Shown here one piece after another: positions 5,609 to 51,925 of a stretch of 64,000 nt of DNA. A program made the translations under genes and the position numbers. Source of the stretch: Sinorhizobium fredii NGR234. GTDB taxonomy: Bacteria; Pseudomonadota; Alphaproteobacteria; Rhizobiales; Rhizobiaceae. The notes beneath the pieces were generated by a model. That model searched no databases and was not told where the DNA came from. It saw nothing but the letters and a program-made list of their open reading frames with translations. Each line of letters begins with the position of its first letter. The first letter of the stretch is position 1. Location of the stretch: assembly GCF_000018545.1 (NCBI RefSeq), contig NC_012587.1:1302001-1366000 (forward strand), written 5' to 3'.

Positions 5609-5646
5609 GCCCCTCACCCTAACCCTCTCCCCGCTCGCGGGGAGAG
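5609..5646. repeat. Left part of a palindromic repeat interrupted by IS110 element 1
   Basis: Contains the hairpin CCTCTCCCCGCTCGCGGGGAG, one module of the bipartite palindromic repeat seen intact at 20069-20194 and 51792-51925. Read on the minus strand it resumes at CTCTCCCC directly after the IS110 core CT; the other part of the same copy lies at 7220-7302. This copy is a short form lacking the CCTCGGGTTAAACCCGAGG hairpin of the other two. Confidence 0.85.
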
Positions 5647-5659
5647 GACTCCCCACCGT

Positions 5660-6910
5660 TTAGCAAGAGAGTTTCTGCTCGGCCAAGGAAGGATTGAAGG
5701 TGGTGCCGGTTTTCAGCATTGCGCATGCGACGTTGAGGAGGCGGTCGGCGACGGATCGCAGGGCACGACCGTGGCTGTGACCTCGGCTTCGAAGGGCGGC
5801 GTACTTCAAACGGCTCCGAGAGTCGTGCTGAATGGCGACGCGTGCCCAATGGTACATGGCGTTGGCGAGCCGGTCGTGGCAGGCCTGTCTTCTGATGACG
5901 ATGCAGCTCTTGCCGGACCGCTTGGTAACGGGCGCGACTCCTGTCAAACTGCGCAAGGCGGCGTGGTCACGTCGCTGCAGGGCATCGAAGGCTTCTGCGA
6001 GCAGCGTGGCGAGGACGATCCTTCCCACTCCCGGCAAGGATGCGAGGATCTCCACGTCATGCTGCTTCCTCTGCCCCGGCTCGGTCTCCTCGGTCGGGAC
6101 AAGGCGGGCAGTCAGGGTATCGAGCCGCTGATGCGCTTGCTTGAGCTGCCGGTTCACGAGGCGAATGCGGGCAATGAGCGTGGCAATGTGGGCGCTGGCG
6201 GCTTCGGTCGTCCCGGCGGCGACCTTGACGGGCGGCGTGCGCAGCACGGCGAGCACATGGGTGGCGTCGACGCGGCGGATGCGGTTGCGTTTGAGAAGCT
6301 TGGCGATCGTCGCCGCGCGGATCCGCGCGGCTTTGGCCGGCGTCGGCACGGCTTCCCAGAGATCGAGCAGCCACTCGGCCCCGAGGTCGTTTTCGAGCTC
6401 GAGCAGCGCAGGAAAGTAGCGCCAGAGCTGCTCGCGCATGCGGTTGGTCAACCGGTTGCGCTCGGCGCCGAGGTCCTCGGCCATGCGCGACCATTCGCGC
6501 AATTCGATGACGACAGGATCGGCGGCGGCAAGCAGCCGGAAGCACCGGCGATCGGTGCGCAAGGCCGAGGCCATCACTTCGGCATCGCGGCTGTCGTCCT
6601 TGGCGCCGGCCAGGGTGAACCGGTCGCGAAAGCGATCCATTTGTTTCGGGTTGATGGCATGCACCTGGCAGCCGCGCTCGATCAGCGTCTCGACCACGGG
6701 CCCGTGCGGCACCTCGATCGCGACCTGGATTTGCCCGGCCTCGGTTGCACCGCTGGTTGCCGTCAGCCAGGCCGCCAGCTCGGCGAGCCCTTCGCCGCCG
6801 TGCCTGAAGACCCTTTCGCCGATTTTCCGGCCATCACCATCCGTGAGGAACACATGATGGCTCTCCGACGCCCAGTCGACGCCGGCATAGAATTGTTTCT
6901 GATCGGTCAT
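5660..6910 (-). CDS. IS110-family transposase (DEDD recombinase)
   Basis: A 416-aa IS110 transposase. The N-terminal RuvC-like DEDD domain shows D in YAGVDWASESH (about residue 11), E in AIEVPHGP and the D pair in AKDDSRDAEV. The C-terminal Transposase_20 domain shows LASLPGVGRIVLATLLAEAF and the serine-containing TKRSGKS segment where IS110 enzymes carry the catalytic Ser. Start at 6910 (MTDQKQF), with a GGAGAAGGG ribosome site immediately upstream; longer in-frame extensions would run into the non-coding guide region and are rejected. Recombination is RNA-guided in this family (bridge RNA, established for IS621). Confidence 0.95.
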   Translation of the reverse strand: MTDQKQFYAGVDWASESHHVFLTDGDGRKIGERVFRHGGEGLAELAAWLTATSGATEAGQIQVAIEVPHGPVVETLIERGCQVHAINPKQMDRFRDRFTLAGAKDDSRDAEVMASALRTDRRCFRLLAAADPVVIELREWSRMAEDLGAERNRLTNRMREQLWRYFPALLELENDLGAEWLLDLWEAVPTPAKAARIRAATIAKLLKRNRIRRVDATHVLAVLRTPPVKVAAGTTEAASAHIATLIARIRLVNRQLKQAHQRLDTLTARLVPTEETEPGQRKQHDVEILASLPGVGRIVLATLLAEAFDALQRRDHAALRSLTGVAPVTKRSGKSCIVIRRQACHDRLANAMYHWARVAIQHDSRSRLKYAALRSRGHSHGRALRSVADRLLNVACAMLKTGTTFNPSLAEQKLSC

Positions 6911-6949
6911 CCCTTCTCCTCGTCCAAGCCTGCGAGCCACCGCGATCTT

Positions 6950-7080
6950 CGCCGATCCCTGTACTGGCGCTCGGAAACGGATACAGCTCCGGCGCGGACT
7001 CCCCACGGGGCATCGATCACGGCCAATCCGACGGGGCACGCGTCCTCTCCAGGTGGTCGGGCCACAGGGGACAATTGGTT
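6950..7080 (-). ncRNA. Predicted bridge RNA of IS110 element 1
   Basis: Read on the minus strand, this region contains in order: GTCCCCT (7066-7072), equal to the left target plus CT core; GGAGAG (7045-7050), reverse complement of core plus right target; GTGGGGAGTCC (6996-7006), an 11-base match to the element's own right terminus running into the core; and GTACAG (6959-6964), reverse complement of core plus left terminus. The first pair is enclosed by a CCAAT/ATTGG stem (7074-7078 with 7023-7027) with a GTGG/CCAC hairpin between the guides; the second by CGAT/ATCG (7012-7015 with 6953-6956). This is the target-loop then donor-loop order known for IS621. The 5' end of the RNA is not determined. 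Confidence 0.7.
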
Positions 7081-7219
7081 GCTCCCGACGAATCGGCTCG
7101 GTTCAGGAAGGCTACGCCAATTTCGGCCATCGTCGCGGGTCATGCTTCATTCCGCTACGCTTCACTTCGCACGACACGCGACGACGGCGTGCAACCCAAG
7201 AACCGCCGGAAAAAGGTAC

Positions 7220-7302
7220 AGGGGACTTGGGGGCGGAGCGTTGCCGCGAGTCCCTTCGCCCCGCGTGCGGGGAGAAGGTGGCCGGCAGGCCGGATGAGGG
7301 GC
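7220..7302. repeat. Right part of the palindromic repeat interrupted by IS110 element 1
   Basis: Contains the second module, the hairpin CCCCGCGTGCGGGG with flanking GACTCGC-like and GCCGGCAGGCCGG segments, ending in GATGAGGGGC. On the minus strand it corresponds to the first half of the intact copies (CCCCTCAT... to ...AGTCCC). From here to the parE stop at 7354, about 50 bp hold nothing I recognise. Confidence 0.8.
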
Positions 7303-20068: not shown

Positions 20069-20194
20069 CCCCTCATCCCGCTGCCGCGACCTTCTCCCCC
20101 TTGCGGGGAGAAGGGAGATGCCGCGCCGCCTCAGTCCCCTCTCCCCGCGAGCGGGGAGCGGGTTAGTCCTCGGGTTAAACCCGAGGAGAGGGGC
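20069..20194. repeat. Intact bipartite palindromic repeat
   Basis: The 300-bp gap after eno contains this repeat: CCCCTCATCCCG, then hairpin CTTCTCCCCCTTGCGGGGAGAAG, a spacer, hairpin CCTCTCCCCGCGAGCGGGGAG, then CCTCGGGT-TAA-ACCCGAGG and GAGAGGGGC. The same modules occur at 51792-51925 and, split by IS110 element 1, at 5609-5646 / 7220-7302. It is the reference that lets the IS ends be placed. Confidence 0.85.
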
Positions 20195-50675: not shown

Positions 50676-51779
<1,104 letters not shown>

Positions 51780-51791
51780 AAAACACAGTTG

Positions 51792-51925
51792 CTCATCCCG
51801 CTGCCGCGACCTTCTCCCCGCAAGCGGGGAGAAGGGGACTCGCGGGAACGCTGTGCCCCAACAGTCCCCTCTCCCCGCCCTGAGGGGAGAGGGTTAGTCC
51901 TCGGGTTAAACCCGAGGAGAGGGGC
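51792..51925. repeat. Bipartite palindromic repeat next to IS110 element 2
   Basis: CTCATCCCGCTGCCGCGACC, hairpin CTTCTCCCCGCAAGCGGGGAG, spacer with GACTCGCGGGAACGC, hairpin CCTCTCCCCGCCCTGAGGGG, then CCTCGGGT-TAA-ACCCGAGG and GAGAGGGGC. It is nearly module-for-module the same as 20069-20194. IS110 element 2 sits at its very first bases. The 224 bp between the transposase and aapP hold this repeat and the aap terminator, no gene. Confidence 0.85.

Follow-up and report, generated by a model that had tools for sequence, protein, structure and literature searches.

The IS110-group element at positions 5647-7219 of the analysed window, a stretch of 64,000 nucleotides from Sinorhizobium fredii NGR234, very probably encodes a bridge RNA with guide segments for its own ends and for its target. 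An earlier note, made from the sequence, had proposed such an RNA and had regarded its target loop as already set for the repeat that the element interrupts; this proposal was upheld by the guide matches, the fold, the joint change of guides and targets in relatives and the uniform insertion sites. The coordinates of all features are collected in Table 1.

Table 1. Features of the IS110-group element, its target and the predicted bridge RNA (positions of the window)
Feature	Position	Strand	Remarks
IS110-group element between both junctions	5647-7219	minus	1,573 bp, or 1,575 if the core dinucleotide is counted once
Left terminus TGTACC	7215-7220	minus	
Right terminus GTGGGGAGT plus probable core CC	5646-5656	minus	
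Left half of target, AAGTCC-CC	7221-7228	minus	GTCCC+CT in 9/9 copies
Right half of target, TCTCCCCG	5638-5645	minus	
Transposase/recombinase gene, 416 aa	5660-6910	minus	ATG at 6910, stop 5660-5662
Long hairpin in left end	7126-7188	minus	conserved loop (GTGAAGCG.AGCGGAACG)
Bridge RNA core (predicted)	~6924-7107	minus	target and donor loops; outer stem 7095-7100 with 6933-6938
Target-binding stem-loop (predicted)	7025-7094	minus	helices 2 and 3; apical stem GTGG/CCAC alternates with GTGC/GCAC
Left target guide GTCCCCT	7066-7072	minus	matches left target 7220-7226
Right target guide GGAGAGG (GGAGAG 7045-7050)	7044-7050	minus	matches right target 5641-5647
Donor-binding stem-loop (predicted)	6939-7023	minus	helices 4 to 6
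Left donor guide GTGGGGAGTCC	6996-7006	minus	11-base identity to right terminus 5646-5656
Right donor guide GTACA plus probable core GG and handshake base G	6957-6964	minus	left junction 7216-7223
TTGCTA, -35-like hexamer	5661-5666	minus	17 bases from TACCTT (7213-7218) only in circle

The element in the window is complete, and identical ends were found in nine genome copies at nine different repeats. Because the copies end identically at nine sites, the termini could be placed from them. In the minus strand, with both strands read, the left flank ends in AAGTCCCC and the element starts with TGTACCTTTTTCC; it ends in GGTGGGGAGTCC, which is followed by TCTCCCCGCG. The encoded protein shows the Pfam domains DEDD_Tnp_IS110 (9.8e-34) and Transposase_20 (2.2e-15) and scores above the cut-off of NCBIfam NF033542 (IS110 family RNA-guided transposase). 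IS621 and ISCro4 were its PDB matches, and the sequence match to IS621 is weak (phmmer, 4.9e-09). Residues D12, E66, D106, D109 and S332 do not vary among the relatives in two alignments, one with 14 and one with 12 sequences. According to a pairwise alignment compared by eye, D12, D106, D109 and S332 correspond to D11, D102, D105 and S241 of IS621, which are named in passages of PMC11208158, and E66 would correspond to E60 of IS621, where the local alignment is off. As in the IS110 group, the protein combines a DEDD RuvC-like domain and a Transposase_20 domain with a catalytic serine, and a long non-coding end is located 5' of the gene, with 309 nt upstream of it vs 13 nt from the stop codon to the right junction. 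The element does not follow the IS1111 group, which has its RNA downstream of the gene, since the RNA sits upstream here. The left end also contains a long hairpin, whose arms co-vary in relatives as judged by eye rather than by a count; it is missing from several of them (L027, L058, L052 and L034) and thus appears dispensable for the RNA core.

Each of the four guide strings described in the earlier note was found once in the 309-nt 5' end, in the minus strand, at the positions and in the order claimed: target-left, target-right, donor-left and donor-right. None of 20,000 dinucleotide-preserving shuffles of the 5' end contained all four in order; single strings occurred in 550 (GTCCCCT), 4345 (GGAGAG), 8 (GTGGGGAGTCC) and 275 (GTACAG) of them. 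The left target guide GTCCCCT probably consists of GTCC-CC and one further base. This final base is C instead of T in copies L003 and L004, which occupy the same target, and this suggests that it is not required. The right target guide reads CC-TCTCC, and its next bases, AC, would read the donor GT at the handshake position. The reverse complement of the right donor guide is C-CC-TGTAC, and the string GTACAG (6959-6964) matches the left terminus at 7216-7221. Guides on either side of the core match target and donor, as in other IS110-group RNAs, and they change together with the target, the joint change being weak on the donor side.

The 6.89-Mb genome, in three contigs, contains nine full copies, all of them on the chromosome-sized contig C3, and the eight other copies show 2 to 6 differences per 1,577 positions in relation to the window copy. 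All nine interrupt GTCCCCTCTCCCC in intergenic palindromic repeats, which we take to be the RIME family. Their flanks differ at each site, the sites are scattered across 3.1 Mb, and the break is at the identical base in each copy. A genome search with the uninterrupted 13-mer found 36 further exact sites, mostly in the same repeat type (by eye), vs none for the backwards pattern. The 11-mer covered by the guides has 39 exact sites left. With one mismatch it has 130, close to the background of 149 matches at up to one mismatch obtained with the backwards control, so one-mismatch sites were ruled out as repeat evidence; none of the nine copies is inserted at such a site. The bases left of GTCC vary over the nine copies (aa, ca, ct), and the left guide has no match there.

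Empty exact copies of the target 13-mer in the window itself include one in a repeat at 20134-20146 (plus strand), and an intact one at 51864-51876, beside another IS110-type gene (50826-51779, plus strand). This gene is of another kind, with a 331-aa open frame; C3 shows four matches of that frame length and one longer, and the RNA model gave no significant match at the gene. Contig C1 (536 kb) contains nine of the 26 genomic Transposase_20 matches, most unrelated to the copies of the window element. A search of the genus for the orthologous empty site of the window copy did not find an identical site; four genus genomes match across the join at 70-72% and show no element, with other palindromic repeats there (by eye).

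The fold was studied on an alignment of 19 RNA cores of related elements. The consensus shows an outer stem around the target and donor stem-loops, with the guides in the internal loop of each; two stem-loops with internal loops, the target loop first, are also the arrangement of the IS110 group. The earlier note had each guide pair within a short enclosing stem: the enclosure was recovered, but the stems are not short, with 14 pairs in the target loop and 9 plus 4 in the donor loop. Double-sided changes were found at 18 of the 41 pairs, 96.0% of the cells pair, and none of 500 shuffles of the 19 RNAs reached any of five fold measures, a comparison in which related sequences may beat shuffles without structure. 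Controls slid by 1 to 3 columns gave 2 to 10 double-sided pairs vs 18 in the unslid alignment, and the innermost pair of the apical stem is C-G in nine of the 19 RNAs and G-C in another nine; both clearly support the predicted fold despite the relatedness of the sequences. Folded as a single sequence, the RNA core was no better than shuffles (z -0.76), and the whole 309 nt gave a z of -2.58. The core value is uninformative, and the case for the fold rests on the compensatory changes. Covariance model R1, built from the 19 RNAs with the window RNA among them, scored the window RNA at 193.7 bits vs 14.3 bits for the runner-up in the window. Rfam gave nothing relevant at the gathering threshold or at E up to 5. 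In the genome of the window element R1 recovered 12 RNAs; further matches, mostly broken copies, were kept out of every count.

Rhizobia and other alphaproteobacteria contain close relatives, of which genome contigs yielded 14 loci. At a cut-off of E 1e-60, genomes with relatives numbered five of 33 in the genus, six of 346 in the family, four of 397 in the order and three of 385 in the class, own genome included in each. Seven plasmid records contain relatives, each below 60% identity, and no relative was found in viral contigs. A sister group (L034, L037, L147, L148 and L149), from genus relatives and from plasmids of Sinorhizobium, Labrenzia and Roseibium, has its right end about 340 bases past the gene, and its left junction mostly shows one extra C relative to its own left guide. 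In L153, a one-base bulge is needed to make the left guide fit, and a right end was not found.

The right target guide was compared with the right target, the five bases right of CC, in 19 elements. Left out were L011, which has lost part of its guide region, L025, whose contig stops short of the right end, L054 (genome and RNA the same as L049), the near-duplicates of L034 or L147 (L037, L148 and L149), loci already represented by another copy (L032, L033, L050, L051, L055 and L057), all copies of the window element other than the window copy itself, which are eight, and fragments (L012, L014, L016, L028, L029, L030, L035, L046-L048, L053, L056, L060 and L146). Guide and own target agreed at 82 of 95 positions, or 4.32 of 5 per element vs 3.14 when swapped, and none of 200,000 permutations reached the observed value. 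With one element per distinct right guide, which makes eight, agreement was 4.25 of 5 vs 2.05 (6 of 200,000 permutations); L026, whose G run is one shorter, was counted as a separate guide in the guide-target tests. Target and guide reading are the same in the window element (TCTCC/TCTCC), L145 (TCCCC/TCCCC) and L052 (GCAAC/GCAAC), and show mismatches in L059 (CAGTA/CAGTT), L034 and L147 (both CCTCC/CCTCT) and L019 (TCTGA/TCATC). The fits are weak in L019 (2 of 5) and L018 (3 of 5). For L052, a loose pattern from the left donor guide listed four places for the right end, one of which, 1.7 kb downstream from the left end, reads GGTGGGAGGT-CC-GCAAC; GCAAC was absent from the search pattern, yet it is what the right target guide reads.

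The left target guide tracked its target more weakly than the right one, at 102 of 152 positions (37 of 200,000 permutations), in 19 elements that include L025 and leave out L026, which has an extra G at the left junction. Its register in L034 and L147 was set by eye, and one-base shifts were not optimised. Fits ranged from 8 of 8 in L059, where guide and target both read GCACTCC, and in L024, to 3 of 8 in L034 and 2 of 8 in L147. On the donor side, the left donor guide agreed with the right end at 8.68 of 9 positions vs 8.48 when swapped (5,266 of 100,000 permutations), and the right donor guide with the left end at 4.85 of 5 vs 4.66 (576 of 100,000). Since donor guides and ends are nearly constant, donor covariation is weak; among elements with altered donor guides, L052, L034 and L147 have ends that fit these guides, and one to three donor mismatches were found in L059, L019, L021, L022, L025 and L026. 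The condition under which the earlier note would have been refuted, guides of related copies that fail to track their own termini or targets, thus did not apply on the target side; on the donor side the check is a weak one. Relatives whose guides differ mostly occupy sites that differ to match, and the element counts as a well-supported new case of the recently discovered RNA-guided insertion systems.

The earlier note had placed the exchange at a CT core. In the window copies a T follows CC both in the target and in the left end, so the DNA is identical under CT and CC and the two cannot be told apart there; the relatives, however, point to CC, one base to the left. Their left junction nearly always reads CC-TGTAC or CC-TGTTC, and their right junction CC followed by T, C, A or G. 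The base after the right-junction CC is the one read by the right target guide in 18 of 19 elements (2 of 100,000 permutations). The genome of L059 contains a paralogous empty site, CACT-CC-CA, without T and with 88% identity across the join. In that of L049, the empty site predicted from CC, GGCACCTCCCCCCCACT, occurs 12 times among 26 listed variants, and the CT version once, one C short of fit. Empty sites of relatives mostly show CC followed by a base other than T. These junction and empty-site patterns suggest that the T is part of the element and that the exchange occurs at CC, barring a CT core in the donor that is regularly retained opposite a CC core in the target; the core of this clade is probably CC. 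Exceptions at the left junction are L054, which shows TC, and L026, with its extra G. The base equivalent to the IS621 handshake equals the base that precedes CC in the target in 18 of 20 elements, the variants L059 and L148 among them, and disagrees in L049 and L147.

In a tree of the gene only, the window lineage is nested in a well-supported group (97/99), and a poly-C guide is found in all eight remaining members of that group. The seven right-guide states require at least six changes on this tree (22 rows), with L026 and L011 entered as poly-C. Because the window lineage is nested in the poly-C group, its guides would have changed to the repeat arm. The window RNA and that of its near relative L021, with a poly-C guide, differ at four guide bases, two each on the left and on the right, and three of these four differences are located at guide positions that match the repeat. 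Poly-C sites of the same genome are occupied by L010 and L011, both of them decayed relatives, and the L010 RNA carries the poly-C guide. All nine copies share the changed guide, so the change presumably preceded their spread. We regard it as rather likely that this clade has a CC core, one base to the left of the IS621 CT core, with the T in its left end, that a few point changes of the target loop led from poly-C to the host repeat family, and that both guide versions and the insertions matching them are present in one genome.

Other explanations of the agreement were also considered. The complementarity could be real and the structure could act in the DNA or in the mRNA leader, with the protein alone picking the site. 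The transposase start follows directly on the structured region, part of which the mRNA might therefore include as well; this explanation is nevertheless very unlikely, since guides and targets change together while the protein stays 54-88% identical, and the equivalents in IS621 and ISEc21 act as RNA according to passages of PMC11208160 and PMC11187229. It is extremely improbable that the agreement reflects only GC-rich low complexity and common descent, without pairing. Many relatives do read and occupy poly-C, an easy match, and the columns are related by descent, but the agreement persists among the eight distinct guides (4.25 of 5 vs 2.05; 6 of 200,000 permutations), the targets GCAAC, CAGTA, TCCCC and TCTCC are not poly-C, and the seven guide states changed at least six times on the tree.

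The uniform sites could also have arisen if the nine copies had spread by homologous recombination, or by duplication of the repeat with the element inside, which we consider highly improbable. All copies are in the same repeat type, and the mosaic pattern of their shared variant bases is suggestive of gene conversion between copies; flanks that differ at all nine sites over 3.1 Mb and the constant break base speak against such a spread. Guided insertion by a bridge RNA is the reading that we retain.

By analogy with its family, the element would move as a circle with joined ends, which would read GGTGGGGAGT-CC-TGTACC. The bridge RNA, encoded by the left end, would be transcribed from a promoter formed at the circle joint, as described for IS621 in passages of the papers on that element. 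Its donor loop would pair with the joined ends, GTGGGGAGT-CC-TGTAC, and its target loop with GTCC-CC-TCTCC in the arm of the intergenic palindromic repeat. Recombinase dimers would sit on each loop, as in passages on IS621 (PMC11208160, PMC11208158), and the DEDD/serine recombinase would join donor and target at the common CC. The predicted insertion site of the wild-type RNA is GTCCCCTCTCC, not poly-C. The promoter-like pair at the junction matches the -35 consensus at 4 of 6 positions and, weakly, the -10 at 3 of 6. The -35-like hexamer has a mean of 3.8 of 6 over 21 elements, near-duplicates included, vs 1.4 at other offsets and 2.5 at the best other one, and a sigma-70 scan found no promoter in the inserted element.

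Two loci show end-to-end arrangements. A fossil on C3 (L143:2870-3020, minus strand, C3 ~2486900) consists of a repeat half, CT and 96 bp of left end as an inverted repeat, followed by GGTACAGGACTCCCCACCG, which in reverse complement is a right end joined to a left end, and by repeat sequence; it looks like the remnant of an end-to-end joint. In the relative L163 (G025:C105 ~76829-77040), the left end is directly preceded by the right-end-like GTGTGGAGT-CC-TGTTCC, like an end-to-end joint. These joints and the junction promoter-like pair are consistent with a circular intermediate.

The system resembles IS621 of E. coli, as described in passages of PMC11208160 (Durrant et al. 2024) and of the structure paper PMC11208158, in its 5' RNA with target loop followed by donor loop, its host repeat as target (REP in IS621), left guides that read the bottom strand and right guides the top strand, handshake bases, and a DEDD and serine recombinase. 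Unlike in IS621, the consensus has an outer stem around both loops, the left end has an extra hairpin, the host repeat is a different one, and the target core in relatives of the window element is CC instead of CT. As in ISEc21, according to passages of Siddiquee et al. 2024 (PMC11187229), the RNA is located upstream of the gene, as in the IS110 type. The same passages report natural retargeting by changed guides between ISEc11 and ISXne4; compared with the ISEc21/IS1111-type seekRNAs, a single alphaproteobacterial clade shows seven right-guide states here, and one genome contains two of these. ISRm19, an IS110-family element of Sinorhizobium, has four of four copies in palindromic repeats (Tobes and Pareja 2006, PMC1525189), as does every copy here, and the passages of that paper on ISRm19 speak of no RNA. 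Among open-access papers, searches for IS110 bridge RNA with Rhizobi and for IS110 with RIME and Sinorhizobium found none. Bridge RNAs, REP-type targets, the upstream location and natural guide change are already published in the passages cited above; new here is one more member of the kind, which shows natural retargeting in a clean series and probably a shifted core.

The clade offers naturally varied bridge RNAs with known targets, and one genome holds both guide versions. The series lets one test how guide changes originate and whether they are linked to copy-number bursts, as well as how strict the core dinucleotide is compared with that of IS621. Recombinases of about 416 aa with poly-C or repeat-arm specificity are starting points for tool work.
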